Shown here: one piece after another, positions 28,128-52,685 of the stretch
How the letters are laid out: the number at the start of each line of letters is the position of its first letter
Position numbering within the stretch: the first letter of the stretch is position 1
NCBI RefSeq assembly: GCF_011043775.1
Contig: NZ_JAAKXY010000004.1
Span: 1-64,000 of the forward strand
Direction: 5' to 3'
DNA: 64,000 nucleotides
Origin: Natronolimnobius sp. AArcel1
Lineage (GTDB): Archaea > Halobacteriota > Halobacteria > Halobacteriales > Natrialbaceae
Notes under the pieces: generated by a model
What the model was told of the DNA's origin: nothing
What the model saw: the letters and a program-made list of their open reading frames with translations, nothing else
Databases searched by the model: none
Program-made: the position numbers and the translations under genes

Positions 28128-28133
28128 CAAAAA
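28128..28133 (-). terminator. T-run after the cytoplasmic GH10 gene
   Basis: A GTTTTTG run on the minus strand about 20 bases past the stop at 28153. Confidence 0.35.
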
Positions 28134-28152
28134 CGGCTGTTGATCGGCGGTA

Positions 28153-29127: not shown

Positions 29128-29227
29128 TGAGCGAACAGAGGGAACGGATCGCATAAAACGTAGGGGTCCCGGCAGAGCCCACCCGACAGGCACAAGGGTT
29201 GTATAGTTGCTTTTCAAATGGCCTGCC

Positions 29228-29470
29228 ATGAGCACAACAGCGACACAGAAAAAGTTCGCCCGCGGGGCAATGTTGATCTCCGTGATCATTGGCATCATCG
29301 GATTGATGTATTTCACTACGCGTGGGGAGGTGGTGACCGGTCTCGTCGTCGGCACGCTGTTCGGAGTCGGCGGCTACTGGGAGTACAAACGACGCATTCG
29401 CGACCTCGAGCAAGCGGACATGGGTGGTGCCGAGCGCGATCCGTTCGAAGAGCGAGAGCGCCGCCGGTGA
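29228..29470 (+). CDS. Small two-helix membrane protein, unknown function
   Basis: An 80-residue protein starting MSTTATQKKFARGAML, with two hydrophobic helices (about 14-30 and 37-52) and a strongly charged C-terminal tail rich in Arg and Glu. Such proteins are common in haloarchaea without known function. It sits between the divergent cytoplasmic GH10 gene and uxaC, 78 bases before the latter. Confidence 0.65.
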   Translation: MSTTATQKKFARGAMLISVIIGIIGLMYFTTRGEVVTGLVVGTLFGVGGYWEYKRRIRDLEQADMGGAERDPFEERERRR

Positions 29471-29548
29471 CCGGCAAAAGCGCCATCGTCGCCGCTCGAA
29501 CACGCCGATCCGCAGGATTATAGTCGCCCCCCAGCGAACCGGTGGCGT

Positions 29549-30913: not shown

Positions 30914-31064
30914 GCGTCCGGACTCGAGGGCTGTTTCTGCCGTCTCGCCGGTGACCTGTTGCTGTTGGCCCCTTTTCCTCTGTACGTCGCTACGCAGGAA
31001 CAGTGGGTTCCGGCGCTCGAGTCGCTGTTCGAACCGCAACGTGTGGCTCGCCTGATTACGCGAC

Positions 31065-31070
31065 AAAAAA
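31065..31070 (-). terminator. T-run after the CBM-bearing GH10 gene
   Basis: TTTTTT on the minus strand, about 30 bases beyond the stop at 31099. Confidence 0.4.
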
Positions 31071-31098
31071 GCGGATTCTGTGATGCCAACAGACTGCG

Positions 31099-32802: not shown

Positions 32803-32911
32803 TGGTATGCCCCACAATCACACGCATCGTCAATTATAATAAATGTTATTTCGAGCAGATTATAATATTTGCTTGAATGTTGTTTGAGAAAATATCCGAG
32901 TGCAGACGACG

Positions 32912-32917
32912 AAAAAA
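32912..32917 (-). terminator. T-run after the multidomain GH10 gene
   Basis: TTTTTT on the minus strand, 13 bases past the stop at 32930. Confidence 0.4.
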
Positions 32918-32929
32918 CGGTTCGCGGCG

Positions 32930-35203: not shown

Positions 35204-35385
35204 GTCCACCGATAGCTATTCCCAAACGCGAATAAAAAGGTTTCCAATTATTGTCTGTTAAGATAAGGTCGTAACCACGGAGACAACAAGACCGCTCGAG
35301 ACGATGTACAGCTCGATCACAACACCACGTTGCAATCGGGCATGCACTACGTTCTTAGTAGGGATGATTCCTATGCGAGTCCGAA

Positions 35386-36681
35386 TTAGCTATCAAACGT
35401 CCAGCGCTGATGAGCGTCGCCAGACCACGACCCCTGCTGGACGTTTGCACCGTCGTCACTCGAGGCATTTTCGACCTCGAGTGCAGCGCCGGTGTGGACG
35501 GGTTCGATACGATACTCGCCGTTCCCTTCGTCGGAGAGATAGAACCGCTGGTTGTCGCCACCGTGATCCGCGTACTGCTGGACGTTTGCACCGGCCGAGT
35601 CGCCGCCGACATCGAGGACGCTGCCGCTGTTGACGTTCTCGATGCGATACACACCGCCGCCTGTGTCCTCGACGTGCCACTGCTGGTTGTCACCGCCCCA
35701 GTACTCGTACTGCTGGATGTTCGCGCCGTCGTCTGTCGACTCTCCCGACACGTCAAGGCCCTTACCGCTGTTGACGTTCTGGATGCCGTAAGTTCCGTCG
35801 GCGAGGTCGCCCGAGGAGCCGCCGTTGCCGTCATCGTCACCGGGATCGCCGCCAGGGTCACCACCTGGGTCACCACCGTTGCCACCGTCGGCTTCACTGA
35901 ACGAGACGGAGGCACTGTTAGAGCCCTGATAGTCCCAGGCCTCGACAGCCATGATCTGGTAGTCGTGACTCCCTAACTCGAGGCCAGCGCTCTCCCAGGC
36001 GTCGAAGTGGTTGCCAATGTTGACGGTGCCGCTGGTTCGTGAATTATCCCGGATGCTCCAGTACTGGGTGAACGTTGCCGTCCCCTCGATCGACGGCTCC
36101 TCGATGCGTTCGGAGGTGTAGATATCGTAGGTACCGCCGTCACTCTCGTGACTGCCGTGTGCCTCGTCGCCAGGCCGGTACGTCCCGTAGTTCTCGATGA
36201 TGTAATATTCTACGAGCGGATCCGTTGTCCATCCGTACACGCATAGATAGGAGTTCTCCGACGGGTTGTGCGTGGCATCGTACTCGATCGTCCGACTCGC
36301 ACCAGGATCCCATCCCATGCCGACGACGAAGTTGCCGGTGTTTTGCCAATCGACGCTGTAACTACCGCCGTCCTCGAGCGTCATCGAAACCACGTCCTCG
36401 GTGTCGGTCCAGAACGACACGAACGAGCCATCGTAGCTGGTCTGTTGGTTTTCGGTGAGTGTTTCTTGGGCGGCAGCCGATGTTGCCATCGCTCCAACAC
36501 CGAGCCCGGTTGCTGCCGCGGCCCCGACTGCTTGCAGGTATCCTCGGCGCGCAAGTTCACTCGAGTCTCCGTCAGAGTCGGTCGACTGCTGGCTGTCCCC
36601 TGAGAAATCGGTTACGCTCTTCCCCACCGAAGTACTATCAGTTCGCTTCCCCGCCGCCTTCTCACTGTTGTCATCTGTCAT
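35386..36681 (-). CDS. Secreted GH11 xylanase with C-terminal ricin-type lectin module
   Basis: A 431-residue Tat-exported enzyme (ARRGYLQAVGAAAA, about residues 44-57). The catalytic jelly roll spans about residues 72-265, with nucleophile Glu158 in PLVEYYIIENYG and acid/base Glu247 in YQIMAVEAW. A Gly/Asp/Pro repeat linker (267-292) leads to a beta-trefoil (about 293-431) with three QQW/QRF/QRW-type repeats (NQQWHV, NQRFYL, HQRWTF), that is, a CBM13/ricin-B fold likely to bind xylan. GH11 is mainly a bacterial and fungal family and is uncommon in archaea. The catalytic domain is nearly identical to the neighbouring gene (about 12 differences in 194 residues). Confidence 0.93.
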   Translation of the reverse strand: MTDDNSEKAAGKRTDSTSVGKSVTDFSGDSQQSTDSDGDSSELARRGYLQAVGAAAATGLGVGAMATSAAAQETLTENQQTSYDGSFVSFWTDTEDVVSMTLEDGGSYSVDWQNTGNFVVGMGWDPGASRTIEYDATHNPSENSYLCVYGWTTDPLVEYYIIENYGTYRPGDEAHGSHESDGGTYDIYTSERIEEPSIEGTATFTQYWSIRDNSRTSGTVNIGNHFDAWESAGLELGSHDYQIMAVEAWDYQGSNSASVSFSEADGGNGGDPGGDPGGDPGDDDGNGGSSGDLADGTYGIQNVNSGKGLDVSGESTDDGANIQQYEYWGGDNQQWHVEDTGGGVYRIENVNSGSVLDVGGDSAGANVQQYADHGGDNQRFYLSDEGNGEYRIEPVHTGAALEVENASSDDGANVQQGSWSGDAHQRWTFDS

Positions 36682-36851: not shown

Positions 36852-37619
36852 TTACCAGCCGCCCCAGCCGCCACCGCCGTCGTCACCACCGTTGCCACCG
36901 TCATCGGCTTCACTGAACGAGACGGAGGCACTGTTCGAACCCTGGTAGTCCCAGGCCTCGACAGCCATGATCTGGTAGTCGTGACTCCCTAACTCGAGGC
37001 CAGCGCTCTCCCAAGCGTCGAAGTGATTCCCAACGTCGATGGTACCACTGGTTCGCGAATTATCGCGAATGCTCCAGTACTGGGTGAACGTCGCCGTCCC
37101 CTCGATGGATGGCTCTTCGATGCGCTCGGAGGTGTACATATCGTAGGTGCCGCCGTCGCTCTCGTGACTACCGTGTTCCTCGTCACCAGGTCGGTACGTC
37201 CCGTAGTTCTCGATGATGTAGTACTCCACAAGTGGATCCGTCGTCCACCCGTACAGACACAGGTAGGAGTTTTCTGATGGATTGTGCGTGGCATCGTACT
37301 CAATTGTCCGACTCGAGCCGGGATCCCAGCCCATGCCGACGACGAAGTTGCCAGTATTTTCCCAGTCGACGCTGTAACTGCCGCCGTCCTCGAGCGTCAT
37401 CGAAACCGTATCGTCGGTGTCGGTCCAGAACGATACGAACGAGCCGTCGTGAGTGGTCTGTTGGTTCTCGGTGAGCGTTTCCTGGGCGGCAGCCGACGTC
37501 GCCATGGACCCAATTCCGAGACCAGCCACTGCGGTTGCTCCTGCCGCTTTCATGTAGTCGCGCCGGTCGATCAGTTTCGCTGCCGATTCGTCCACGTTGT
37601 GCGTCTCGTTGTCTGTCAT
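36852..37619 (-). CDS. Secreted GH11 xylanase, single domain
   Basis: A 255-residue Tat-exported xylanase (IDRRDYMKAAGATA, about residues 18-31). Nucleophile Glu132 (PLVEYY) and acid/base Glu221 (IMAVEAW). The chain ends shortly after the catalytic domain in a Gly/Asp/Trp tail (GGNGGDDGGGGWGGW), which looks like the start of the linker seen in the neighbour but without the lectin. It is a tandem paralogue of 35386-36681 on the same strand, 170 bases apart, each with its own Tat signal. No TATA-like box lies at the leaderless distance; the nearest good one is about 110 bases upstream, and an AAACATCATGGTAC element lies about 65-75 bases upstream. Confidence 0.93.
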   Translation of the reverse strand: MTDNETHNVDESAAKLIDRRDYMKAAGATAVAGLGIGSMATSAAAQETLTENQQTTHDGSFVSFWTDTDDTVSMTLEDGGSYSVDWENTGNFVVGMGWDPGSSRTIEYDATHNPSENSYLCLYGWTTDPLVEYYIIENYGTYRPGDEEHGSHESDGGTYDMYTSERIEEPSIEGTATFTQYWSIRDNSRTSGTIDVGNHFDAWESAGLELGSHDYQIMAVEAWDYQGSNSASVSFSEADDGGNGGDDGGGGWGGW

Positions 37620-37695: not shown

Positions 37696-37855
37696 TCAAC
37701 CACATCATAATGTCCAACGGCAATTATTGATAAATGTTTCTTATAGTTCTTTACTATAATTATAAAACACGTGCAGTGATAGACCAACCATCGCGTAGAT
37801 TACTGTTACTCGAGACTGTACGAGAGAGACTGAGTCACCCGTCAACGAACAGGCC

Positions 37856-37867
37856 TAAAAGAAAAAA
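37856..37867 (-). terminator. T-rich terminator after the GH3 gene
   Basis: GTTTTTTCTTTT on the minus strand, about 12 bases beyond the stop at 37878. Confidence 0.5.
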
Positions 37868-37877
37868 CGCGCTGCTG

Positions 37878-40226
37878 TTATTCTACGTCGACTGCCGACT
37901 CGGTGTAGTACGTGCGAGCGGTCTTCGGTACCGTTTTCGTGTCCGTAACCTCGAGCTCTGCAACAGACTCGATATCCGTCGCGGAGCTTCCGATGCGGAC
38001 CTCGTATGGTCCCTCTTCAACTGTGAGGTTCATATCGAGGTCGTGGAACGCAAGCTGGGTCGTGTTGAACTCGAAGGTGACGCGTTTGGACTCGCCAGCC
38101 TCGAGATCGACGCGTTCGAAGCCGAGCAGTTCCTGCACCGGACGGGCCTGGCTCGGGTTCGCTGCGTGCGTGTAGAGTTGGACGATCTCGGTACCGGCGC
38201 GGTCGCCGGTGTTCGTGACCGTCACGCTCGCAGAGACCGACTCGAGTGGCGTTGCGCTATCAGCCGACAGCGAGATGTCGCCGTACTCGAACTCGGTGTA
38301 GCTCAGGCCGTGACCGAACGGATACACTGGGTTGCTGTCAGTGTAGACGTAGTCCTTGTTCGCCGTGTTGGCTTTGCGGTTGTAGTAGACCGGGAGCTGG
38401 CCGACCGATTTCGGCAGCGAGACCGGGAGTTTTCCGGCAGGGTTGTACTCGCCGAACAGCGTTTCGGCGATTGCTGGCCCACCTTCGTCGCCTGGCAGCC
38501 AGGCGTAGAGAATCGCCGGGGCGTCCTCGGCGATGTCCTCGATTGCGTGTGGTCTCCCACTGACAACGACGACGATGACCGGGGTGTCCGTCTCGAGCAG
38601 TTCCGAAACGAGTTCCTCTTGCACGCCAGGGAGCCCGAGATGGGTCATGTCGCAGCCTTCGCCACTGGTTGGGACGCTTGGTTTCTCCTCTTTGTCGGCG
38701 TCCACATCGGAGAAGTCGACTGCGGAGCGAGCGCCGACGAACGCCAGCGCAATGTCTGCGTCGTCGGCAGCCTCGGTTGCCGCGTCGAAGCCGTCGGTCG
38801 ACGGCCCAGAGATCGTACAGCCCTGCTCGTAGGAGACGTCGATTTCGTCTCGCTCCTCGAGGGCGGCAAGCGGCGTGATGGCGTCGGCTTCGTACTCCTC
38901 TTCGGGGTAGTGGGCTGCGTAGGCGTAGTCGCCCATGAGCTCTTTCGGATCGTCTGCCTTGGGACCGACAACGGCGACGGAGTCGGCCTCGAGTGGCAGC
39001 AGGTCGTCGTCGTTTTTGAGCAGCGTCATCGACTGACGGGCGGCCTCGAGCGTTACGTCGCGGGCTTCGTCGGTGTGGAACGCGTCTGGGGCCTCGTCGG
39101 GGTCGACTCGCTCGTTGTCGAAGACACCCTTGCGGAACTTCTCTCGGAGAACGCGACGGACTGCCTCGTTGAGCGTCGATTCCGAGAGGTCGCCATCTTC
39201 GACGGCGCTGACGAGATGTTCGCCGTAGTACTCGGTGTAGGGCAGTTCGACGTCGAGACCGGCCTCGATCGAGGCGACGGCACCCTCCTGTTTCGTGTTG
39301 ATCGTGCCGTGTTCGGTCTCCAAGTGGCGAACGCTGTAGTAGTCCGAAACGACGGTGCCGTCGAAGCCGAACTCACCGCGCAGCAGATCGGTCAGGAGCC
39401 ACTCGTTGGTCACACATGGAACGCCGTCGAGGTCGTGATAGGCGTTCATCACCGACTCGGCGTTCGACTCGCTGATGACGGCCTCGTAGGGGAACAGATG
39501 GGTTTCACGGAGTTCGCGCATGCCGACGTTGAACGACGAGCGGTTCTTCCCACCATCGGTCGCGCCGTGGCCGACGAAGTGTTTCAAGGTTGCGGAGATA
39601 CCATCATCACGGCCCTCGCCTTGCAGTCCATCCACGTACGCGCGTGCCATCTCGGCGACCATGTACGGGTCCTCACCGAATGTCTCCTCAACACGGCCCC
39701 AGCGAAGGTCTCGAGCAACGTCGAGCACTGGCGACAACGCATGCACCGTCCCGATCGACTCGAGTTCGCCACGAATCGTCTCGGTGACGGTCTGGAGCAA
39801 TGCTGGGTTCCAGGTGCTTGCCATCCCGAGCATCTGCGGGAAGGTCGTCGCTTCCGGACCCATGTACCCGCTAAGACACTCTTCGTGGGGAATCGCCGGA
39901 ACACCGAGTCGTGTCTCGGTCTCGAGGTAGTCCTGGAGTTCGTTCGTGATGCGTGCAGCGTCGGCCGGTGCGAGGCCACCCTCGCCACCGATTCGGGTCA
40001 GGTGACCGATCCCGTCGCCGAGCCACTCCTCGACGGCTTCCTCGTCGAGTTCGTCGTCCGCAGTCAGAATACGCTCTGCGTTGACCGAACCCAACTGTGC
40101 GGCTTTCTCCTCGAGCGTCATCTGCTCGAGAAGATCCTCGACTCGAGCCGAGACGGACGCTGTTTCATCCCGATACGTCGCGGTAGGCTGTTCGTCTGTC
40201 ACATATTGTCCGAGGTGATCGATCAT
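37878..40226 (-). CDS. GH3 beta-xylosidase / beta-glucosidase
   Basis: A 782-residue cytoplasmic GH3 enzyme with the three usual parts: N-terminal barrel (about 20-370), alpha/beta sandwich (about 400-620) and C-terminal fibronectin-III-like domain (about 680-770, PVQELLGFERVDLEAGESKRV style). The nucleophile is the Asp in TVVSDYYS (about residue 294); SDY rather than SDW is common in xylosidase-type GH3. KHFVGHGATDGGKNR is the substrate-binding KH motif. No signal peptide. In this context the role is probably removal of xylose from imported xylo-oligosaccharides; beta-glucosidase or arabinosidase activity cannot be excluded. The start at 40226 (MIDHLGQYVTDEQP) excludes a Cys/Arg-rich upstream extension. 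Confidence 0.9.
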   Translation of the reverse strand: MIDHLGQYVTDEQPTATYRDETASVSARVEDLLEQMTLEEKAAQLGSVNAERILTADDELDEEAVEEWLGDGIGHLTRIGGEGGLAPADAARITNELQDYLETETRLGVPAIPHEECLSGYMGPEATTFPQMLGMASTWNPALLQTVTETIRGELESIGTVHALSPVLDVARDLRWGRVEETFGEDPYMVAEMARAYVDGLQGEGRDDGISATLKHFVGHGATDGGKNRSSFNVGMRELRETHLFPYEAVISESNAESVMNAYHDLDGVPCVTNEWLLTDLLRGEFGFDGTVVSDYYSVRHLETEHGTINTKQEGAVASIEAGLDVELPYTEYYGEHLVSAVEDGDLSESTLNEAVRRVLREKFRKGVFDNERVDPDEAPDAFHTDEARDVTLEAARQSMTLLKNDDDLLPLEADSVAVVGPKADDPKELMGDYAYAAHYPEEEYEADAITPLAALEERDEIDVSYEQGCTISGPSTDGFDAATEAADDADIALAFVGARSAVDFSDVDADKEEKPSVPTSGEGCDMTHLGLPGVQEELVSELLETDTPVIVVVVSGRPHAIEDIAEDAPAILYAWLPGDEGGPAIAETLFGEYNPAGKLPVSLPKSVGQLPVYYNRKANTANKDYVYTDSNPVYPFGHGLSYTEFEYGDISLSADSATPLESVSASVTVTNTGDRAGTEIVQLYTHAANPSQARPVQELLGFERVDLEAGESKRVTFEFNTTQLAFHDLDMNLTVEEGPYEVRIGSSATDIESVAELEVTDTKTVPKTARTYYTESAVDVE

Positions 40227-40924
40227 CTTAGTCCTTCTGACAGTGGATTCGTCGGACCGATTGGACACTATTCTCCGATATACCTTCGGCAGCGATCGGG
40301 TTCTGTTATGCAGACATCGATCAACCAAACACAAACAGAGTTCCATACAAGATAATTGTGTTCTCCAAAACAGAATCAAAGTCAGTTTGAGACAGTAATA
40401 CTGACCTGCTCAGAACGTATTTTTATTACACCTGTACTGCTGTAAATCGGTTCCGGCAAACTGTCGAGGGGGACCGCTATCTCTGGAATAGTATCACCAA
40501 CCGTTTGATGAGATACAGAGTACGATGAGTTACATAGGGAGAAAACCATTCTCTACCAAAGAACACACCTGTATATTGGTCCCACGTCACATGGCTGACA
40601 GACACACAACACACGCGAAACAAAAATTAGCGCAAGACTCGAAGGAATCCCACCAAATCAGTGTGGTCAGTGCTCACAAGCACTGTGGTACACCCCATGG
40701 AGTATTCCGGGTGGTTACGCCGACCGTAATTTCATCTTTCATATGTATTATTCAACTCCACAGCATCTGAATATATCTTAGTATAATTGCGATAGACTGA
40801 CAATCACTCCCAGAGACGGGAGTCCGCAGGCTGCTTGCGGTTCAACAGCGCCAGTGTTCTGCCAGACTCACCGAAACAGTAATTTTATTAGGGTAGGCAA
40901 GCAGTTCAACAGTATCAATAGACC
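40227..40924. other. Divergent intergenic region, 698 bp, upstream of the fused permease
   Basis: No credible gene; an 81-codon frame at 40525-40770 has non-haloarchaeal composition. It contains an inverted repeat CAGTGCT-CACA-AGCACTG (40668-40685) and a direct repeat GCTTGCGGTTCAACAG (40833-40848) / GCAAGCAGTTCAACAG (40897-40912) that brackets the TATA-like box of the permease. The size and the repeats suggest a regulated promoter region. Confidence 0.45.
40833..40912 (+). promoter_or_regulatory. Permease promoter flanked by direct repeats
   Basis: A TATA-like AATTTTATTA (40881-40890) is bracketed by two 16-base repeats that match at 13 positions (GCTTGCGGTTCAACAG and GCAAGCAGTTCAACAG), the second overlapping the expected start of transcription (about 40912). 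A regulator binding both would be placed to control the promoter. Confidence 0.45.
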
Positions 40925-42982
40925 ATGAGTAATTGGCTCCTCAAGCGAATCGGGCAGAGCATCTTGACGGTTGTCGTGGTGTTCCATCTGACATTCGTCT
41001 TGGTTCGGCTCATGCCGTCGGACCCTGTTCAGGCGATGTTCACGCAGATGATGGCGGAGAATCCGGACAATCCGGAACAAGCTCGCCAGCTCGTCGAACT
41101 ATATGTAAGTATCAACCCGCAAGACCCACTGTATATACAGTATATCGACTACATGGCTGCCCTCCTGCAGGGCGACCTCGGTTACTCGATGGCCGAGAAC
41201 GCCTCGGTGAACCAGGTTCTCGCTGAGGCAGTCCCGTGGACGATTTTCTACATGTCCGTGGCGATGGCCATCACGTTCGTGACGAGTATCTGTATCGGTG
41301 CGATTATGGCCTACTACGAGGGAACGAAATTCGACACCGCGATGACCGTCGTCGCTGTCATCGAGAGCTCGACCCCGTACTACGTCGTTGCACTGCTGTT
41401 GTTGTTCGTCTTCTCCTACCAGCTCGGCTGGTTCCCAACGAGCGCCCGCTACCCTGGTGGAGCCGACATCGGTCTGAACGCCGAGTTCGTCCTCGGTGCG
41501 TTCTATCACGCAGCGCTTCCGATCTTCTCGATGGTCGTTACAGGGGCTGCAGCATCGCTCGAGATGCGTGGGAACTCGATCAGTGTCCTCGGCTCTGACC
41601 ACATCCGAGTTGCACGCCTGCGTGGACTGCCGCCAATGCGTATCGCACTCCGATACGTCATGCGCAACGCATTGCTCCCGCTTTACACCGGCCTGTTGCT
41701 CCTCGTTGGCTTCATGATCGGTGGCTCGATCGTTCTCGAGGAGATCTTCAACTACCGCGGGATGGGGTGGTATATGTTCGAGGGGGTCAACAACCGTGAC
41801 TACCCACTGATGGTTGGTGGCTTCATGGTGATCTGTTTCACCGTCGTCATCATGATGTTCATCGCTGACCTTACCTACAGCAAAATCGACCCGCGTGCGA
41901 AAACCAGCGGTGACAACATGGAAGTGTACGGCAGCTCGGCCGGTGTCCCACTTCGCACACAGCTCAAACGCTACATCCAGCGTCTCACCAGCAGCAACGA
42001 GCCTCGAGCCGACGGCGGAACGACTCCACACGCGTTGTTCGGTGACGATGATGCGGCGAGCGTGAGCCGCAAAGACGTCATGTATCGGAAGTTCGACCGC
42101 TCGGTGTACGCGCCGGCCAAGATCGTCCTGAGTGACTGGCGTGGTCTCGTCGGGACCGTGCTGACTATGTCGTTCATCTTCATGGGCGTCTTCGGTCCGC
42201 AGTTTACCCACAGTCCAACAGCAACGTTCGACTCGTGGGTCTCGCCACTGGATGGCAACCTCGCACACCCGCTTGGAACGAGTAACACCGGGATTGACAT
42301 CCTGTCGCTCGTCGTCAATGGGACAACTCCGGTCCTCATCATGGTCGCAACTGGTGCGATTGTCACGGTGTCGCTCGGTGTCGCTGTCGGGACGGCAGCC
42401 GGCTTCCGTGGCGGTGCGCTCGACCGCGCGCTCATGACCATCTGTGACATCGTCGTCTCGATCCCTGGTCTGCCACTGATCATCGTCATTGCGGCGATCA
42501 TTGAACCGCGCCATCCCGCACTGATCGGTATCGTCCTCTCCGTTGCCGCCTGGGGTGGCCTTGGACGGGCGATCCGGTCTGAAGTGCTGAAAGTCCGCAG
42601 TCAGGAGTACGTCGAGGCCTCCCGCGCAATGGGCGTCGGGACCTTCGCAATTGTCCTGAAGGACATCCTGCCAAACATCTGGCCATACGTCCTCATCAAC
42701 CTCGCCAACCACGGACGGAACATCATCTTCTCGTCCGTCGCCCTGTACTACCTGGGCTTCCTGCCACGCAGCACCCAGAACTGGGGTGTCCTGCTCGATC
42801 AGGCAGAGTCGTCCAACGCGCTGTACTCCATAGGCCAGGTCCACTACATCCTGGCACCGATGCTGGTCATCATCCTGTTCTCGATGGGGCTGATCCTCAT
42901 CGCACAGGCACTCGACCGCATCAGTAACCCACGGATCCGCGCCCGTCACGCCAAGTCCGTCGACGACGACGAACCACGATAA
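40925..42982 (+). CDS. Fused DppB-DppC-type ABC transporter permease
   Basis: A 685-residue membrane protein carrying both permease subunits of a Dpp/Opp importer in one chain. Residues 1 to about 318 are DppB-like (starting LLKRIGQSILTVVVVFHLTFVLVRLMP, with the EAA-type loop VARLRGLPPMRIALRYVMRNALLP near 225-250). A hydrophilic linker (about 320-395) joins to a DppC-like half (about 400-680) with VEASRAMGVGTFAIVLKDILPNIWP near 565-590. In most systems these are two adjacent genes. There is no internal stop across the joint, so this is a true fusion. It has no ATPase or binding protein beside it; the likely partners are the ATPases at 19391-21617 and the two family-5 binding proteins. Confidence 0.92.
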   Translation: MSNWLLKRIGQSILTVVVVFHLTFVLVRLMPSDPVQAMFTQMMAENPDNPEQARQLVELYVSINPQDPLYIQYIDYMAALLQGDLGYSMAENASVNQVLAEAVPWTIFYMSVAMAITFVTSICIGAIMAYYEGTKFDTAMTVVAVIESSTPYYVVALLLLFVFSYQLGWFPTSARYPGGADIGLNAEFVLGAFYHAALPIFSMVVTGAAASLEMRGNSISVLGSDHIRVARLRGLPPMRIALRYVMRNALLPLYTGLLLLVGFMIGGSIVLEEIFNYRGMGWYMFEGVNNRDYPLMVGGFMVICFTVVIMMFIADLTYSKIDPRAKTSGDNMEVYGSSAGVPLRTQLKRYIQRLTSSNEPRADGGTTPHALFGDDDAASVSRKDVMYRKFDRSVYAPAKIVLSDWRGLVGTVLTMSFIFMGVFGPQFTHSPTATFDSWVSPLDGNLAHPLGTSNTGIDILSLVVNGTTPVLIMVATGAIVTVSLGVAVGTAAGFRGGALDRALMTICDIVVSIPGLPLIIVIAAIIEPRHPALIGIVLSVAAWGGLGRAIRSEVLKVRSQEYVEASRAMGVGTFAIVLKDILPNIWPYVLINLANHGRNIIFSSVALYYLGFLPRSTQNWGVLLDQAESSNALYSIGQVHYILAPMLVIILFSMGLILIAQALDRISNPRIRARHAKSVDDDEPR

Positions 42983-43128: not shown

Positions 43129-44598
43129 CTATCCCTGATAGGCGTCTGATTCTTCGAGCACGGCCGATTCCGAAAGGTCCCAGTCTGCGAGATACGCTTC
43201 CTGTGCGTCGACGAGTTCGGCAAACAGTTCCCGCGCTTCCTCGGTCTGGAGCGTTCGAATCTGCTGGTCGATGAGGAAGCCTTCGAATGCGGCGTCGATG
43301 TCGCCCTCGCGGGAGGCCTCGATGACCGTCTCGATAGTATCGACGTGGCCCTGAATCAGCGCGCGAACGGGCCGTGGGAAGCCGCCAGCGGCCATCGGCT
43401 TGACCTCGTTCGCTCGAACCGTCGCGTTCGTCTCGACAACGGCGTGTTCCTCCAGGTCGGAGACCTGCCCGACGTTCGGGAGGTTGATGTTCGTCACGTA
43501 GGTGTCTTTGCCGACGAGCGCGCGAAGAATGTCCACGAAGACCTCGTCGGATTCCTCGAGTTCGAACTCCTTCTCACCGGAGAGCCAGGCTTCGACATCG
43601 GTGGTCTGGTCGGATTCGGCGGGCGTCCAGTGTTTGGCGCGGTAGTCGCTGCCGGTACGTTTGACGCCCCAGCGGTTGAGTCCTTCTTGGCCGTTCTGGA
43701 TGAACGAGGTCGCATATTCGACGAGGTGGCGATCACCCGCGGCGGGCAAGACGTCGAATCGGCGGAACAGTTCCCAGGTTACCTGCCAGTTGTCCACGAA
43801 GACGCTTTCATCGGCGAGATCATCCCAGGTGAATTCCTGGTGGCCTTCCTCGCCCTCAACCAGGTCCTCGAGAACGGGCCAGAGGTCGACGCCCTTACAG
43901 CGGGCTTCATCGACCCACGTGAAGTGGTTGATCCCCTTGACGTTGACCGAGATGTCCGAGCGCTCGGCATCCATGTCGAGTTCCTCGCGGGCGTAGTGCG
44001 CGAGGCGATGGCGGGTGCCAAGCACTTCGTGACAGAGGCCGAGTGCGTTGATCTCGGGATACTCGTCATAGAGTGCGCGCGTGACGAAGTGGACCGGATT
44101 CGTGTAGTTGAACACCCATGCGTCGGGGCAGTGTTCGCGGATCGCAGCGGCGAACTTCCGATACTGTGGAACGGTCCGCATTGCCCGGAAGATGCCGCCG
44201 GGACCGATTGTCGCCGCAACGGCTCCGTAGATACCGTACTCCTTGGGAATGTCGAGGTCGTGAACGAACGTCTCTGCCGGATTGTACTGTGTCGAGAGAA
44301 TGACGACGTCCGCGCCGGTGAGTGCCTCCTCGAGTGTCTCGACTGCTGCGTAGGACCACTCCGAGGTTGGCTCGACGTCGGCATCGCTGTGGACCCAATT
44401 GCCGAACTCGGCGTTTCGCTGTGCGCTCTCGTAGAACTCGTCATAGAGTCGCACCTCTCCGCTGAGATCAGACTGTGCGAGGTCGCGGATCAGATTCGGT
44501 GCCCACTGGCGGCTGCCACCGCCGAGATAGGCGATCGTAATGTCGTCGGGATCGATTGCTGTCTCCGCTGTGACTGCAGTGTCCAATTGTTGTGACAT
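43129..44598 (-). CDS. GH4 family glycosidase with CHEV motif (candidate alpha-galacturonidase)
   Basis: A 489-residue NAD- and divalent-metal-dependent GH4 enzyme, which works by oxidation-elimination rather than direct hydrolysis. The nucleotide-binding start is ITIAYLGGGSRQW (about residues 19-31). The metal/active-site tetrad is CHEV (about residue 189), followed by VKGINHFTWV. In GH4 this tetrad tracks specificity, and CHEV has been described for alpha-galacturonidases (the LplD type), unlike the CHSV-type alpha-galactosidases. A uronic-acid-linked substrate from pectin or glucuronoxylan is therefore more likely than galactoside (inference). No signal peptide. A TTTATCA box gives a leaderless start. 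It is divergent from the GH43 gene. Confidence 0.88.
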   Translation of the reverse strand: MSQQLDTAVTAETAIDPDDITIAYLGGGSRQWAPNLIRDLAQSDLSGEVRLYDEFYESAQRNAEFGNWVHSDADVEPTSEWSYAAVETLEEALTGADVVILSTQYNPAETFVHDLDIPKEYGIYGAVAATIGPGGIFRAMRTVPQYRKFAAAIREHCPDAWVFNYTNPVHFVTRALYDEYPEINALGLCHEVLGTRHRLAHYAREELDMDAERSDISVNVKGINHFTWVDEARCKGVDLWPVLEDLVEGEEGHQEFTWDDLADESVFVDNWQVTWELFRRFDVLPAAGDRHLVEYATSFIQNGQEGLNRWGVKRTGSDYRAKHWTPAESDQTTDVEAWLSGEKEFELEESDEVFVDILRALVGKDTYVTNINLPNVGQVSDLEEHAVVETNATVRANEVKPMAAGGFPRPVRALIQGHVDTIETVIEASREGDIDAAFEGFLIDQQIRTLQTEEARELFAELVDAQEAYLADWDLSESAVLEESDAYQG

Positions 44599-44623
44599 CG
44601 TACGGAGGGAGCGTGAGCCACGC

Positions 44624-44631
44624 TGATAAAC
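44624..44631 (-). promoter_or_regulatory. TATA-like box of the CHEV GH4 gene
   Basis: GTTTATCA on the minus strand, centred about 29 bases before the ATG at 44598. Confidence 0.5.
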
Positions 44632-44641
44632 ATCATGGTAC
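44628..44641. promoter_or_regulatory. AAACATCATGGTAC element between GH4 and GH43
   Basis: An exact 14-base match to 37682-37695, here overlapping the upstream edge of the GH4 TATA-like box, the usual place for an activator or repressor contact. It lies in the divergent promoter region shared with the GH43 gene. Confidence 0.45.
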
Positions 44642-44734
44642 GAGTAACATCGCCCCATACCCGACTGTGGTGCTCTTTTCTTGCTGTCAAGTCCACGCCT
44701 GGATTTGCTCCTGTCTGCTGTATCCGATCAGTAC

Positions 44735-44765: not shown

Positions 44766-46265
44766 ATGCAGTACGAAAATCCGGTCCTTCCCGGGTTCCA
44801 TCCAGACCCGAGCATCTGCCGCGTCGGCTCTGATTACTACCTCGCGACGAGTTCGTTCGAGTACACGCCAGGCATCCCACTGTATCACAGCGAGAACCTG
44901 GTCGACTGGGAGCCAATCGGTCACTGCCTCACCGCAGACCAACTCGACCTCGAGGATGCGGAACCCTCCCAAGGCATCTTCGCGCCGACGCTGCGCCATC
45001 ACGAGGGCACGTTCTATCTGGTCACGACGAACGTCTCTGCAGGTGGGCACTTCGTCATCACGGCAGACGAGCCAACCGGCGAGTGGTCTGACCCGCTCTG
45101 GATCGACGCGCCGGGAATCGACCCCGACCTGTTCTGGGACGATGGGACAGCGTACTTCACGTACCGCAGCGGCCCGGACGGCATCGAACAGGCCGAAATC
45201 GATCTTGAGACGGGCGAACTCGGGGAGTCCACCCAACTCTGTCGGCGGCTTGTCTCGGACTACACCGAAGCGCCACACCTCTACGAGGTCGATGGCACCT
45301 ACTACCTGATCGTCGCGGAAGGGGGCACCCACACCCGGCACATGGTCTGTGCGGCCCGCGCTGATGATCCGACGGGACCGTTCGAGCCCTGCCCCAACAA
45401 TCCAATTTTAAGCCACCGCAGCGTCAGCGGTGCGTACAACCCGATTCAGGCCATCGGCCACGCTGACCTCGTCGAGGCCCACGACGGCTCGTGGTGGCTC
45501 GTCTGTCTCGGCATCCGCAAACACGGCGGCCACCCCGGCTGGCACCACCTCGGCCGCGAAACGTTCCTCGCCCCCGTCACCTGGGAGGACGGCTGGCCAG
45601 TCGTCAACGACGGTGAGCCACTCGAGGCCGAGATGACCGTCCCCGACACGGCCCTCGAGACGGGCGAGACCCAATCCTGGGAGACAACAGCGCCGTTCGA
45701 CGGCGACGAACTTGGCCCACTGTGGAACTACCGATACCCACCCGAAACCGACCGGTACGTCCTCGAGGATGGAATCCTCACGCTCCATGGTGGCCCTGCA
45801 ACGCTTGACGACCGCGACTCGACGTTCGTCGGCCGCCGCCAGCAACACTTTGACTGCAAAGTCGAGACAGAACTCGTATTCAACCCCGAAGCGGACGGCG
45901 AGGCCGGCCTGACAGCCCTCTACGACGAGTCACACCACTACGAGATCGGGCTCACGCGCGAGGACGGCAACCGAGTCGTCGTCGCTCGAGCCACGGTTGG
46001 TGACATCAGCGACCGTCTCGGCGAGGTTCGCGTCCCGGAGGGGCCGGTGACGCTCCGACTCGAGGCAACGCAGGACGAGTACGACTGGCGTGTCGAGACA
46101 ACTGAAGGAACCGAACACCTTGCAACAGCGCCGACGAAGTACCTCGCGACGGAAGTTGCGGGCGGCTTTACTGGTGTCTATCTCGGCCCGTATGCGACCG
46201 GCAACGGCAACGAGTGCGACCAGCCCGCCCACTTCGAGTCGTTTGCATATCGCTCATCGGAGTAG
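44766..46265 (+). CDS. GH43 beta-xylosidase
   Basis: A 499-residue cytoplasmic enzyme with a five-bladed beta-propeller (about 1-300) and a C-terminal beta-sandwich (about 310-499), the layout of XynB-type GH43 beta-xylosidases. The catalytic set is visible: base Asp14 in GFHPDPS, pKa-modulating Asp121 in GIDPDLFW, and acid Glu168 in DYTEAPHLY. It should remove xylose from the non-reducing end of xylo-oligosaccharides; side activity on arabinofuranosides is common in the family. No signal peptide. It is divergent from the CHEV GH4 gene and has its own leaderless promoter. Confidence 0.93.
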   Translation: MQYENPVLPGFHPDPSICRVGSDYYLATSSFEYTPGIPLYHSENLVDWEPIGHCLTADQLDLEDAEPSQGIFAPTLRHHEGTFYLVTTNVSAGGHFVITADEPTGEWSDPLWIDAPGIDPDLFWDDGTAYFTYRSGPDGIEQAEIDLETGELGESTQLCRRLVSDYTEAPHLYEVDGTYYLIVAEGGTHTRHMVCAARADDPTGPFEPCPNNPILSHRSVSGAYNPIQAIGHADLVEAHDGSWWLVCLGIRKHGGHPGWHHLGRETFLAPVTWEDGWPVVNDGEPLEAEMTVPDTALETGETQSWETTAPFDGDELGPLWNYRYPPETDRYVLEDGILTLHGGPATLDDRDSTFVGRRQQHFDCKVETELVFNPEADGEAGLTALYDESHHYEIGLTREDGNRVVVARATVGDISDRLGEVRVPEGPVTLRLEATQDEYDWRVETTEGTEHLATAPTKYLATEVAGGFTGVYLGPYATGNGNECDQPAHFESFAYRSSE

Positions 46266-46299: not shown

Positions 46300-46758
46300 T
46301 TAGTCGGTAACGACCGAGACGATCCCATCGAAGTTGAGGATCACGCCCTGTGCCGTATCGCCGAAGATTGCTTTCCCGGTCGGCGAGCGCTGTCGACCAG
46401 CGATGAAGATGTGATCACAGTCGTGTTCGGTTGCCGAAGCGACAATCCGCTGGGCTTCCGGTTCGCCATCGAGAACGACACAAAGGGGCTCGTACTCGAC
46501 CTCGAGACCATCGAGTTCTTCTCTGGCGATATCGCGTGCGAACTGGCGGCCGCTTTCGTTGATATCCGTCGACGGATAGGACGTGCCTTCCACGTCTGCA
46601 ATCGTCGACATCGTCTCGAGGTCGGCCTCGTACTCGTCTTTGTCCATCGTTACGAGCAAGACGAGCGAGGCATCGACGCCGGCTGCAAGCGATCCGGCTT
46701 CTCGAACTAATCGTCTGGCGCCATCGGCTGAGTCGACTACAACGAGTGCGCGATCCAT
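46300..46758 (-). CDS. Universal stress protein (UspA family)
   Basis: A 152-residue cytoplasmic UspA-fold protein. It starts RALVVVDSADGARRLVREA, has the central DLETM...TSYPS region, and ends with HIFIAGRQRSPTGKAIFGDTAQGVI, equivalent to the ATP-binding G-2x-G-9x-G(S/T) loop. Its role in the pentose island is unclear; haloarchaeal genomes carry many Usp genes. A TATA-like AAATATTTAT region at 46784-46793 supports the ATG at 46758. It converges with the GH43 gene, with 34 bases between the stops. Confidence 0.88.
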   Translation of the reverse strand: MDRALVVVDSADGARRLVREAGSLAAGVDASLVLLVTMDKDEYEADLETMSTIADVEGTSYPSTDINESGRQFARDIAREELDGLEVEYEPLCVVLDGEPEAQRIVASATEHDCDHIFIAGRQRSPTGKAIFGDTAQGVILNFDGIVSVVTD

Positions 46759-46928
46759 ACCCACCCCGTCACACTCACTCGAAATAAATATTTGGCCGTC
46801 GGCACGCGAGTACGGTGAGTGTCCGAGTGTGGGAGACACCGTAGCGGTGCCTGTGTGAGCAGTGGACGTGAATGAATTTCGATACCTTGTACGTGAAAAG
46901 CGCAGAACGACGAAACGACAGAGTCGCG

Positions 46929-48365
46929 TTAGAAGCCGTCGTAGACGGTCTTTTCGATCGTGTAGAAGTCGATACCTGCGTCACCCTGTTCGCGCCAGGT
47001 CTCACTCGAGGACTGCTTGAAGCCGCCGAATGGGACGTGGAGTTCGAGGCCGGTTGTCTTGTCGTTGATCTTCGCAACGCCGGCTTCAATCTCGTCGACG
47101 AAGCGCTCGGCTTCCGTGTGGTCGTTCGTCACGATACTCGAGGAGAGCCCGTAGTCGACGTCGTTGGCCGTCTCGAGTGCCTCCTCGAAGTCGTCGACTT
47201 CGATCACGGCGAGGACTGGCCCGAAGACTTCCTCCTGGGCGATGCGGAATTCGTTGTCGACGTCGGTGAAGACGGTCGGTTCGACGAAGTGACCCTCGTC
47301 GAACTCGTCAGGCTGGCCGCCGCCGGTTGCGAGCGTTGCGCCTTCGTTTTCAGCCACTTCGATGTAGTCGAGGGTGCCCTCAAGTTCGCTTTCGTTGACT
47401 TGTGGACCCATATCGGACTCCTTGCCGGGACCGATCTTAATGGACTCGGCTTCTGCGACGATAGCGTCAACGAACTCGTCATAGACGTCCGTGTGGACGA
47501 TTGCACGCGAGGTCGCGGTACAGGACTGGCCGGTGGTCCCGAATGCACCAGCGGCGATGATTGCTGCGGCTTCCTCGACATCGGCAGTGTCGCTGACGAC
47601 CGTCGGGTTCTTGCCGCCGAGTTCGGTCTGGACGCGTTTGCCGTCGTCGGTCGCTTTGTCGTAGATCATGTGCCCGACCTGACCGGAGCCGGTAAAGGAG
47701 ACGGCATCAACGTCCTCGTGGACAACGAGTTCGTTCCCAACGGTGCTGCCGGGGCCAACGACGACGTTTGCGACGCCATCTGGAAGGCCGGCCTCGTCGA
47801 GCGCCTTGAAGATCTCGAGGGCGACGCCGGGTGCGACCTTTGCGGGCTTGAGGACAAGCGTGTTGCCCGTCGCGAGCGCGGGCGCAATCTTCCATGCAGG
47901 GATCGCGATTGGGTAGTTCCATGGCGTGATCAGGGCGGCGACGCCGACTGGCTCGTTCTTCGTGTAGAGATTCGTTCGCGGGCTGCTTGCGCTTTTGACC
48001 GAGCCACCAAGGTCGCGAGTCTTCTCGGCATAGTAGTAGAAAATGTCGATCGCACGCTGGACTTCACCGCCGGCTTCAGCCTGTGTTTTGCCCTCCTCGG
48101 CGATCAACAGGTCGGTGATCTCAGCTTTCCGATCCGCGAGAATCGAGGCGGCCTCGCGCAAGATTGCACCGCGCTGTGGGGCTGGGGTGTTTGCCCACTC
48201 GTCTTCGGCGGCAGCAGCGGCCTCGACGGCGGCGGCAGCGTCCTCGACGGTTGCTTCCTGATACGTCGCAACCGTTTCGGACGGTACCGCTGGGTTCGCC
48301 GTTTCAAAGGTCGTTCCCGTTTGGATCCACTCCCCGTCAACGTAGTTCTGATAGTCCGCAGTCAT
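46929..48365 (-). CDS. xacF: Alpha-ketoglutarate semialdehyde dehydrogenase (ALDH family), copy 2
   Basis: A 478-residue paralogue of the aldehyde dehydrogenase at 12880-14328 and highly alike along the whole length, down to the shared C-terminal DFYTIEKTVYDGF. The catalytic Cys is in GQSCTA (about residue 281), the general base in TELGGKNP, and the cofactor stretch LVLKPAKVAPG keeps the Lys that is Asn in copy 1. It starts with ATG (MTADYQNYV). Divergent from the second solute-binding protein gene. With two copies, one may serve the xylose route and the other arabinose or another semialdehyde, or be expressed differently (inference). Confidence 0.9.
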   Translation of the reverse strand: MTADYQNYVDGEWIQTGTTFETANPAVPSETVATYQEATVEDAAAAVEAAAAAEDEWANTPAPQRGAILREAASILADRKAEITDLLIAEEGKTQAEAGGEVQRAIDIFYYYAEKTRDLGGSVKSASSPRTNLYTKNEPVGVAALITPWNYPIAIPAWKIAPALATGNTLVLKPAKVAPGVALEIFKALDEAGLPDGVANVVVGPGSTVGNELVVHEDVDAVSFTGSGQVGHMIYDKATDDGKRVQTELGGKNPTVVSDTADVEEAAAIIAAGAFGTTGQSCTATSRAIVHTDVYDEFVDAIVAEAESIKIGPGKESDMGPQVNESELEGTLDYIEVAENEGATLATGGGQPDEFDEGHFVEPTVFTDVDNEFRIAQEEVFGPVLAVIEVDDFEEALETANDVDYGLSSSIVTNDHTEAERFVDEIEAGVAKINDKTTGLELHVPFGGFKQSSSETWREQGDAGIDFYTIEKTVYDGF

Positions 48366-48436
48366 GGCTACACAATTGCTCTGCGGGTATACGGGTCTTG
48401 CGATCAGGGTGAATATCGCTCCAGCGTTCTATTGTC

Positions 48437-48451
48437 ATCATGTTACGGGTA
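48437..48451. promoter_or_regulatory. CATCATGTTAC-type element in the xacF copy 2 / binding-protein divergent region
   Basis: TCATCATGTTACGGG resembles the AAACATCATGGTAC elements (one base different in the ATCATGGTAC core). It lies about 75-85 bases upstream of the xacF copy 2 start, a distance like that at the single-domain GH11. Confidence 0.3.
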
Positions 48452-48607
48452 TGCCACCTTCCAATCTATTACTCATATCTGAATAGCGAATTATGAGGTC
48501 ATAATCCGGCCGTCATTTCCAGAATGCGCGGGTAAAATGGATGTGTCAGGTAGCCTCTGGCTGTTGTCTCCCTCTTTCTACCAAAACAGCCGCTCCCAAA
48601 CCCAATC

Positions 48608-48640: not shown

Positions 48641-50521
48641 ATGTCTGTTAGTGACACCCAAGTATGGTACCTAGCGAATCGATACGGTGCAGATGATTCC
48701 AAGTACAATCAATATCTCTCTCGGCGACAGTTGTTAGCCGCGCAAGGTGCAGCCGGCGTGGCCGCCTTTGCAGGGTGTATGGGTGATGACGACGGCGAAG
48801 ATATCCTTGGAGATACAACGCCAGAATCGGTGCTCGGTGATGTCGACTACAACGAGGACTACGAAGACGAGTTCAATGTTATCTACCCGTCGGCAGATCT
48901 CAACCCAGTCGACGATGACTACATTTTCAACCCATATCATTCCCAATGGAACGCCGGCGATCTGGGCCAGGAGTTCGGCTTCGAGTATCTAGCGGTGTTC
49001 CACACCGAACGTGGCGAGTATATCCCTCGAGTCGCCGAAGAGTGGTCGATTGACGAAGAGGGCCTCCGAACCGAAGTAACGCTCTCAGACGAGTACGCCT
49101 GGTCGACGGGTGAGCCGATCACGGCTCACGACTTCGTCACTGCCTACAAGCTAGACGGCTACATGGGTCTCGGCATGGAGGACTTCGTCGACATCGAAGA
49201 GGGAGTCTACGCTGAGGACGACTATACGATCGTGATCGAGCCTCGTGACGAGTACCGTGATATGGAAGAAGAACTCTGGATCGAAGAGTGGGCCGAGATG
49301 ATCCTGCAGGTTTCCGACGAACAGTACGGTCACTTCGTCGAGGAGTTCGAAGAGGCAGAGACCGACGAGGAGATTGAGAGCGTTCAAGAAAGCATCCTCA
49401 ACTATGACCTGAGCTGGGACGAAGTTATGTACTCAGGCCCCTGGATCTTTGTCGAGGCAAACGAAGAGTTCGCCGACCAGATCCCGAACCCAGAACACCC
49501 AATCGCACAGGAGTGGGACTTTTTCCAGCGGATCGGCGTCTATGTGGACGAAGAGGGTGTCCAATCCGGCGAGGTCGACTGGGGAGATGATAGCCCAGAC
49601 CTCGATGACGTTCCAGACATGTACGGAGAAGGGCCATTGCCGTACGATGGGCAATCGTTTGCGATCATCTTTGGAACCGAAGACGAGTATATCCGCGACT
49701 ACCCAGAGGTGCGCCAAGCAATCGCTTACGCCGTCGACGTTCCGTTCCTCACCGAGACCACCGCGACAGAAGGGACCGACTACGACGAGTACTCGACAGG
49801 GGTTGACTCGCTGTACGTCGAAGACTACGTCGAATCCGATGTTCTCGAGGCAATGGAAAATTACGGACCTGAGGACACCGACAGAGCCGCAGAACTGCTC
49901 GAGGACGTTGGGTTCGAGCAGGAAGATGGTGAGTGGCTCACCCCTGACGGCGAGACCTGGACGCTCAATTTCCCAGTCGGCGACTGGTTCGACATCCACT
50001 CGGAGATGATCTCGAACAACCTCGCCGAGTTCGGCATCGACATGGACTTTTACGTTGAAGAGATGCCGACGTGGCAGGCTGAGACCGAAGACAACCTCGA
50101 CTACGACCTGACGGTCCAGTTGAACTATGGGATGGCTCGAGATTACCACCCATATGCAGACTTCGATGATGTGTTCAACAACAACACGATGGGGCTGTTT
50201 ACTGAACGCACCGGCATGATCGATGAAGAGGTTGAAGTACCCGAAGTCGGCAACCCTGACGGGGACACGGTTACGATCGACATCGAAGAGGAACTCGATG
50301 AGATGTCGACAGCTGATTCCGAGGAAGACCTCATCGATCACGCAACGACGCTTGCCTGGGTCCACAATCAGACGCTGCCAGCGCTTGTCTGTTACCCATG
50401 GGGCGGTGGGCACTACTGGGTGAATACTGAAGACTGGGACTTCGACCTCGAGAGCGATGACTGGCTGACCTCGAACCGCATCACTCACTACCTGCTCGAG
50501 AACGGTCTCGAGCCGGTCTAG
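48641..50521 (+). CDS. ABC transporter solute-binding lipoprotein, family 5, copy 2
   Basis: A 626-residue paralogue of the binding protein at 16045-17871. The Tat motif is SRRQLLAAQG (about residues 27-36) and the lipobox FAGC at about residue 46. The N-terminal segment before the twin arginines is longer than in copy 1. The SBP_bac_5 fold follows, with the same marker segments (VIEPRDEYRDMEEELW, IPNPEHPIAQEW, RQAIAYAVD, TSNRITHYLLENGL). It probably delivers xylo-oligosaccharides or another hemicellulose fragment to the same fused permease and ATPase pair, since no second set is seen (inference). Confidence 0.9.
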   Translation: MSVSDTQVWYLANRYGADDSKYNQYLSRRQLLAAQGAAGVAAFAGCMGDDDGEDILGDTTPESVLGDVDYNEDYEDEFNVIYPSADLNPVDDDYIFNPYHSQWNAGDLGQEFGFEYLAVFHTERGEYIPRVAEEWSIDEEGLRTEVTLSDEYAWSTGEPITAHDFVTAYKLDGYMGLGMEDFVDIEEGVYAEDDYTIVIEPRDEYRDMEEELWIEEWAEMILQVSDEQYGHFVEEFEEAETDEEIESVQESILNYDLSWDEVMYSGPWIFVEANEEFADQIPNPEHPIAQEWDFFQRIGVYVDEEGVQSGEVDWGDDSPDLDDVPDMYGEGPLPYDGQSFAIIFGTEDEYIRDYPEVRQAIAYAVDVPFLTETTATEGTDYDEYSTGVDSLYVEDYVESDVLEAMENYGPEDTDRAAELLEDVGFEQEDGEWLTPDGETWTLNFPVGDWFDIHSEMISNNLAEFGIDMDFYVEEMPTWQAETEDNLDYDLTVQLNYGMARDYHPYADFDDVFNNNTMGLFTERTGMIDEEVEVPEVGNPDGDTVTIDIEEELDEMSTADSEEDLIDHATTLAWVHNQTLPALVCYPWGGGHYWVNTEDWDFDLESDDWLTSNRITHYLLENGLEPV

Positions 50522-51562: not shown

Positions 51563-51694
51563 GCAGCCCACAAATAGTCCGTACTAGACACTCGGTTCGA
51601 CACTCGCAGCCGCCGTTGTCTGTATGCAAGCCTGTTCTGCGCTGTAACGTGAGTGACTGGTGAAAGAAAACAGGGTTCGCCAGCACAGAACAAT

Positions 51695-51702
51695 CTATAT
51701 GT
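51695..51702 (+). promoter_or_regulatory. TATA-like box of the IclR regulator gene
   Basis: CTATATGT, centred about 28 bases before the ATG at 51726. Confidence 0.55.
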
Positions 51703-51725
51703 GTGTTCAAACCATGCATACGCAT

Positions 51726-52487
51726 ATGCCAGAACCAAAACACCCCGTTCGGACTGTCGACAGAACCTTCGAGATTCTCGAGATTATTCAGGAACTCGAT
51801 GGGGCGGGCATTTCTGAGATTGCTGAGCAGGTCGATATCGGTAAAAGTGCGGTTCACAATCACCTGACGACGCTTGCCAATCGCGAGTACGTCGACAAGG
51901 ACGGCGACGAGTACCACATTGGACTCTCGTTTCTAGGCCTCGGGGCGTACGCTCGCAACCGCACGCCAATCTACGATACGGCTCAGAAAGAAGTCGACAA
52001 ACTCGCCGACGACACTGGCGAACTCGTCAATCTCCTCGTCGAGAAAAACGGCCGCGGCATCTACCTCTACCAGGCAAAAGGCGAGAACGCGGTCGAACTT
52101 GATACCCACGAAGGCAAACGCGTCCCGCTTCACTGTACCGGACTCGGCAAGGCAATTCTCGGATTCCGACCCGACGAACAAGTCGAACGCATCGTCGAGG
52201 AGTATGGCCTGCCATCCGTAACGAACAAGACGATCACCGACCGCGAGGAATTCTTCGCTGAACTCGAGGAGATTCACGAGCAACGCTTTGCCGTCGACCG
52301 CGAGGAGCGACTCAACGGCCTGCGGTGTATCGCCGCGCCGATCACAGACGATAACGATGAGAGTATCGCGGCGGTCAGCGTTTCCTGCCCCGTCCACCGC
52401 GTCGGCGACGAACGTTTCTACGAAGACCTTCCAGAGGCCGTCCTGGGGACGGCAAACGTCATCGAACTCGAGCATAATTATTCGTAA
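51726..52487 (+). CDS. xacR: IclR-family transcriptional regulator, XacR type
   Basis: A 253-residue regulator. The N-terminal winged helix-turn-helix (about residues 8-68) starts VRTVDRTFEILEIIQEL and includes the recognition-helix region IGKSAVHNHLTTLANREYV. The C-terminal IclR effector domain (about 80-250) has PLHCTGLGKAILGF and RCIAAPITD. In Haloferax volcanii an IclR protein, XacR, activates the xylose and arabinose genes; position beside xacE and family make this the likely counterpart. Leaderless start at 51726. Targets may include the repeated ATCATGGTAC-type elements in the island, but that is untested. Confidence 0.85.
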   Translation: MPEPKHPVRTVDRTFEILEIIQELDGAGISEIAEQVDIGKSAVHNHLTTLANREYVDKDGDEYHIGLSFLGLGAYARNRTPIYDTAQKEVDKLADDTGELVNLLVEKNGRGIYLYQAKGENAVELDTHEGKRVPLHCTGLGKAILGFRPDEQVERIVEEYGLPSVTNKTITDREEFFAELEEIHEQRFAVDREERLNGLRCIAAPITDDNDESIAAVSVSCPVHRVGDERFYEDLPEAVLGTANVIELEHNYS

Positions 52488-52685
52488 TTCGAGTAAACAG
52501 AGAGAACAGTATTCGCTAGTGGTGAACAGTAGGTCGGTTACACACCATCATGAACTGATGTGAGACGTGATCGTCGACTACTGCGACAAACTACTCGTCA
52601 GTGACTGCTGGCCAGCCATCGAGTCGAATCCGGATGTATACACCCTGGTAGCAACTATTATGGGTTGTGTTGGCAATGGTCAAGT

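Follow-up and report, generated by a model that had tools for sequence, protein, structure and literature searches.

The GH4 enzyme encoded by an island of xylan-degradation genes in Natronolimnobius sp. AArcel1 carries the CHEV tetrad reported as the mark of alpha-galacturonidases, yet it belongs to a haloarchaeal lineage that has lost an aspartate from an active-site loop and sits in xylan and glucuronate loci. Considering that this lineage kept CHEV but lost the Asp by one change, CHEV does not fix the substrate. We favour, by a modest degree and from sequence comparison and genomic context, the reading that the enzyme is a xylan-dedicated, NAD-dependent alpha-glucuronidase that would act on short aldouronic acids alongside GH67.

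The gene is intact and lies on the minus strand at 43129–44598 of the window, the 64,000-nucleotide stretch that we analyzed (positions 1 to 64,000 of contig NZ_JAAKXY010000004.1). The minus-strand ORF is longer (43129–44658, 509 aa), and position 44598 corresponds to its Met21 (MSQQLDTAV...). Because confidence in the structural model fell below 50 at residues 1–23 of the longer ORF, 44598 is probably the true start, as the first-pass annotation had assumed. The protein matched both GH4 Pfam domains (PF02056, E=2.8e-40; PF11975, E=1.6e-39). It contains the NAD-binding motif GGGS (44512–44523), with G46–G48 invariant in the alignment, the CHEV motif (44023–44034), in which C209 is the expected metal ligand, and an INH motif (43924–43932) providing H245, the expected second metal ligand. 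C209, H245 and GGGS were invariant, as expected for the NAD and metal sites of the family, and the earlier assignment of the gene to GH4 with CHEV was thus borne out. CHEV was retained in 65 of 65 extracted haloarchaeal relatives and throughout the bacterial relatives, except for two with CHEI; since it also occupies the GH4 motif column, it is not a chance tetrapeptide.

A phmmer search of the PDB returned LplD, the Bacillus subtilis enzyme labelled alpha-galacturonidase (3FEF), as the top match at 304 bits, the next GH4 protein scoring 98 bits. The AlphaFold2 model (pLDDT 87, pTM 0.88) adopts the GH4 fold and aligned with 3FEF with a TM-score of 0.91 (relative to the target) and 37% identity. 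In a phylogeny including LplD, a check that the first-pass annotation had suggested, the haloarchaeal CHEV branch was placed beside the bacterial LplD-type enzymes (SH-aLRT 91). The literature basis of the CHEV mark was traced, through a citation in PMC4650693, to Thompson et al. (2013, FEBS Lett 587:799), a paper that by its title reports strict specificity and a CHEV motif unique to these enzymes. Membership of the CHEV/LplD group of GH4 therefore stood, and with it uronidase activity as the natural guess, but the step from CHEV to alpha-galacturonidase was not supported: CHEV is common to all the haloarchaeal relatives examined, although one set of them is linked to pectin and another to xylan and glucuronate. 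The window gene falls in the latter set, where the loop Asp is lost.

The surroundings of the gene agree with the glucuronoxylan island described previously. A GH43 gene with a beta-xylosidase C-terminal domain (44766–46265, plus strand) is transcribed divergently from the GH4 gene, with 167 bp between the two starts. On the other side lie, on the minus strand, a GH3 gene of the beta-xylosidase/beta-glucosidase type (37878–40379) and two GH11 xylanase genes (36852–37619 and 35386–36681), the latter with a ricin-type lectin domain. Further away are a GH67 alpha-glucuronidase gene encoding all three domains (22563–24701, minus strand), the glucuronate isomerase gene uxaC (29549–30913, plus strand) and five GH10 genes, two on the plus strand (24822–26504 and 26565–28079) and three on the minus strand (28153–29355, a GH10 xylanase; 31099–32817; 32930–35209). 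The D-xylose 1-dehydrogenase Gfo6 (18022–19101, minus strand) scored 532 bits against a cut-off of 350. The island also includes aldehyde dehydrogenase genes and, on the plus strand, genes for a two-domain ABC permease of the oligopeptide type (40925–42982), an SBP_bac_5 solute-binding protein (48641–50521) and an IclR-type regulator (51660–52487).

Several features of the island were recorded in their own right. The permease at 40925–42982 combines two BPD_transp_1 domains in a single 685-aa ORF, an apparent fusion of two permease subunits, and matches to it were found in several loci of the same lineage. The five GH10 genes are packed into about 10 kb (24822–35209); one scored typically on the GH10 model (330 bits) and several scored weakly (108–140 bits), possibly representing a divergent GH10-like family. 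A universal stress protein gene (46300–46839, minus strand) is embedded in the sugar island, and a cluster that contains relatives of this protein turns up around both kinds of GH4 gene, in 19 of 62 loci. Two plus-strand ORFs (37734–40355 and 46872–48482) were rejected as genes, being shadows of the minus-strand GH3 and aldehyde dehydrogenase genes; such shadow ORFs are a trap in a high-GC genome.

The first-pass annotation had predicted that automatic pipelines would call the protein an alpha-galactosidase or alpha-glucosidase. The best NCBIfam model was indeed alpha-galactosidase, but at 233.2 bits the protein stayed far below the cut-off of 486, and its relatives are annotated simply as 'glycoside hydrolase family 4'. 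That the enzyme is a neutral alpha-glycosidase of one of these types, for example one taking galactose off xylan side chains, is suggested by this best model, yet we regard it as very improbable. The island encodes a second GH4 protein (52665–54020, plus strand), of the MelA/PRK15076 alpha-galactosidase type, which shares the family and the island but differs in having CHSI instead of CHEV, ESSHH where the CHEV enzyme has AGDRH, and a neutral sugar type; it keeps the loop Asp. With CHSI and a score of 562 bits, above the alpha-galactosidase cut-off, this second GH4 already fills the neutral role.

To place the gene among its relatives, we searched 391 Halobacteria genomes for close GH4 homologs and found them in 57. 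They group into clade A, to which the window gene belongs and whose members are 64–94% identical to it, a pectin-linked set B (45–50% identical) and small intermediate groups. The genome of strain AArcel1 holds both kinds, its set-B paralogue lying at C1:371605–373002 (locus L048). We compared about 10 kb around 29 clade-A copies with the same region around 28 other haloarchaeal copies. Genes of a xylan set, defined as GH10, GH11, GH67 and xylose dehydrogenase, were found near 23 of the 29 clade-A copies compared with 1 of the 28 others (p=2e-9); uxaC was near 20 versus 2, and a UxuA-like (mannonate dehydratase-like) gene near 20 versus 1. By contrast, GH28, GH78, PL11 and PL22 were each absent from the 10 kb around all 29 clade-A copies, while among the 28 others these genes were nearby in 10, 12, 5 and 7 cases, respectively. 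The two arrangements can be seen in individual loci. In the clade-A loci of Halorussus vallis and Halarchaeum, genes for xylanase, Gfo6, mannonate dehydratase, UxaC, an SDR and GH4 lie together, whereas in Halopiger pHALXA01 (set B, L100) the neighbors encode GH28, oligogalacturonate lyase, rhamnogalacturonan lyase and rhamnonate dehydratase; a bacterial relative in Nitratireductor has uxaC, kduI and GH88 as neighbors. The pectin/galacturonate context expected of the LplD class was not found around the window gene.

Whole-genome content gave the same picture. GH67 occurs in 39 of the 391 genomes, and 28 of the 30 clade-A genomes have it (Fisher p=1e-31, a value not corrected for kinship of the genomes). 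A GH28 search gave no match in 17 of the 30 clade-A genomes, and GH78 was missing from 15. Given the co-occurrence with GH67 and the 17 genomes without GH28, clade A follows glucuronoxylan use rather than pectin. The altronate dehydratase family PF04295, present in 11 of the 30 genomes, was set aside as a galacturonate marker, because it also covers other sugar-acid dehydratases and is uninformative. Around L048, GH78, GH28, the Asp-keeping CHEV GH4 and GH115 fall within about 33 kb (G000 C1:352669–385136), a probable pectin/rhamnogalacturonan island. At L035, L036 and L037 (and at L183, in Haloarcula marina), two CHEV GH4 genes lie near each other in opposite orientation, the Asp being missing from one and present in the other, in what looks like a duplicated pair with split roles; these loci also carry genes for a CBM9-like protein and a TCP-1/cpn60 chaperonin.

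The lineage is defined by its active-site loop. The IYQSVGDTxGPGG of LplD reads IYGAVAATxGPGG in the window protein: the altered stretch GAVAAT (44209–44226, minus strand) places Gly145 and Ala149 at the positions that are Gln and Asp (QSVGDT) in LplD and the pectin-linked relatives. The Asp column is Ala in all 36 clade-A sequences and in all three of group C1 (L035–L037, e.g. Natronococcus and Haloarcula marina), and Ile in both sequences of the Haloarcula halophila type. It is Asp in 38 of 38 set-B sequences, in all 72 bacterial sequences (71 besides LplD) and in the alpha-galactosidase, and 6-phospho-glucosidases have Glu at the aligned place. The Asp is thus gone from 41 of 41 lineage sequences and kept in 110 of 110 other CHEV sequences. 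In a 60-sequence tree, the Asp-less proteins formed one group (SH-aLRT 100), and a single change still explained the loss with the loop, TNP and 335–350 stretches removed from the tree (support 99). Further marks of the lineage are SDYRAKHW and TNPVHFVTR, the latter replacing TNPMxxCTR. C209, H245, N187, R310, H311 and R340 are unchanged, and two clade-A copies have Glu in place of D309. In GlvA numbering, the GH4 loop acid is Glu111. A search of the structural literature on the role of this acid in GH4 found nothing usable, and for this reason we claim no function for it.

These data bear directly on whether the protein could be, as the first-pass annotation proposed, an alpha-galacturonidase like LplD, acting on plant-wall galacturonides (digalacturonate, or else the alpha-GalA found in the reducing-end sequence of xylan). 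LplD is by far the best match, CHEV is conserved and the model lies close to 3FEF; moreover, the reducing-end sequence of glucuronoxylan includes alpha-GalA linked to xylose. Nevertheless, we consider this unlikely, given the xylan/glucuronate context, the lack of nearby pectin genes, and the genomes without GH28 or GH78, the latter being needed for the reducing-end route. The version in which the enzyme serves the reducing-end Rha-GalA-Xyl sequence was rejected, half of the clade-A genomes being without GH78 and none having GH78 within 10 kb. In addition, neither LplD nor any of the 71 other CHEV proteins from bacteria shares this loop, and the strain already has a pectin-linked LplD-type paralogue, L048. 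The QxVxDT loop, with its Gln and Asp by the active site, may be needed for galacturonide specificity. The features common to all CHEV uronidases are kept in the lineage: GDR of the GDRH motif (43726–43737, minus strand) and R340 are invariant in these enzymes, apart from Glu for Asp in the two copies, and missing from the alpha-galactosidase. R310 and H311 are invariant in all CHEV enzymes examined, and R310, absent from the alpha-galactosidase, is a candidate carboxylate binder.

If the enzyme is an alpha-glucuronidase, as we favour, its substrates would be short aldouronic acids, (4-O-methyl)GlcA-alpha-1,2-xylose(n) among them. Xylanases would cleave glucuronoxylan extracellularly, the acidic oligosaccharides would be imported by an ABC transporter, and the uronic side group would be taken off by GH67 and by the window GH4, which is probably intracellular. 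Xylose would then pass through Gfo6 into the remaining xylose pathway, and glucuronate through UxaC, an SDR reductase and mannonate dehydratase. Following GH4 chemistry, bound NAD+ would oxidize C3, the C2 proton would be lost, the aglycone eliminated, water added and the sugar re-reduced, with the predicted dependence on a divalent metal and a redox cofactor. Loci of clade A combine uxaC with UxuA-like and SDR genes, and UxuA acts on mannonate, in the glucuronate branch. The UxuA-like protein tested from clade A scored 148.7, below the NCBIfam curated cut-off of 191, and one copy of the Haloarcula type passed it (236).

The weightiest genomic cases come from genomes in which GH67, GH115, GH10 and GH11 were not found. 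In the Asp-less lineage, the Haloarcula halophila cluster comprises genes for IclR, UxaC, SDR, GH4, a sugar ABC transporter, GH2 and mannonate dehydratase. We found no GH67, GH115, GH10 or GH11 in two genomes of this type (G384 and G367), so that the Asp-less GH4 is their only evident alpha-glucuronide hydrolase. Similarly, in genome G276 a clade-A GH4 gene lies beside genes for xylose dehydrogenase, UxaC and UxuA, and searches for the same four families found none; this gene set is as expected for an enzyme splitting GlcA-xylose. Most weight falls on the Haloarcula-type and G276 cases, since in other genomes GH67 could by itself account for UxaC and UxuA. The idea that GH4 simply replaces GH67 in xylan degraders was discarded: the two families occur together, and in the two clade-A genomes that are without GH67, GH10 and GH11 are missing as well.

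Several points count against the glucuronidase reading. UxaC and UxuA may be present just for the product of GH67, UxaC can also serve galacturonate, the UxuA-like protein tested from clade A fell short of the curated cut-off, and a different substrate could lie behind the loss of the loop Asp. The nearest characterized enzyme is LplD, of a class described as strictly specific. TM0752, the GH4 alpha-glucuronidase of Thermotoga maritima, is distant (49 bits) and retains acidic residues in the equivalent stretch. A further alternative would be GH4 NAD chemistry on a uronic acid by something other than a simple glycosidase, for example a 3-dehydrogenase, epimerase or eliminase, for disposal of 4-O-methylglucuronate or for work with GH67. 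An otherwise invariant active-site acid is gone in every member of the lineage while the NAD and metal motifs stay, GH67 is a near-constant partner and oxidoreductase neighbors are frequent. Against this, CHEV, N187, C209, H245 and R310–H311 are all intact, and the Haloarcula operons without GH67 still need a hydrolase; moreover, no GH4 enzyme of this kind is known to be other than a glycosidase. We therefore judge this function improbable, more so than galacturonidase activity.

The window protein shares with LplD the GH4 fold, CHEV, INH, AAGDRH and the NAD motif, and differs in having IYGAVAAT and TNPVHFVTR where LplD has IYQSVGDT and TNPMSVCTR; LplD and the bacterial CHEV clade have a pectin context, whereas the window lineage has a xylan/glucuronate context and its own SDYRAKHW stretch. 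Set B (L048; Halopiger L100) has CHEV and the same domain pair, but keeps the loop Gln and Asp (38 of 38) and adjoins GH28, GH78, PL11, PL22 and rhamnonate dehydratase genes. TM0752/Agu4B (1VJT, 6KCX, 7BRF) has the GH4 fold and the proposed type of substrate; at 17% identity, and with a CHG motif instead of CHEV, it belongs to another GH4 branch, and the window enzyme may work like it while falling outside its sequence group. The GH67 enzyme would do the same job, removing (methyl)glucuronate from xylo-oligosaccharides, and is nearly always encoded in the same genome. GH67 is unrelated to GH4 in fold and hydrolysis chemistry and uses no NAD, and the two enzymes would presumably divide the labor.

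CHEV is open to use as a shortcut to galacturonidase, as in the first-pass annotation, yet this lineage keeps CHEV and sits in xylan loci. In published cultivation work, haloarchaeal strains that carry pectin genes were not seen to grow on this polymer (PMC9726719), a warning against inferring function from such genes alone, and the split between the CHEV lineages may bear on that puzzle. Tentatively, and with less assurance than for the window enzyme itself, we propose that the Asp-less proteins make up a functionally distinct subfamily of GH4 in Halobacteria. Its members would be alpha-(4-O-methyl)glucuronidases, dependent on NAD and dedicated to xylan, and would have arisen from pectin-type alpha-galacturonidases with the loop change, so that CHEV would no longer predict the substrate and haloarchaea would remove the side groups of glucuronoxylan by two unrelated chemistries, GH67 and GH4. 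If true, a redox glycosidase family would offer a clean example of a substrate change, xylan breakdown would have a second glucuronidase chemistry, and annotators would have a practical warning.
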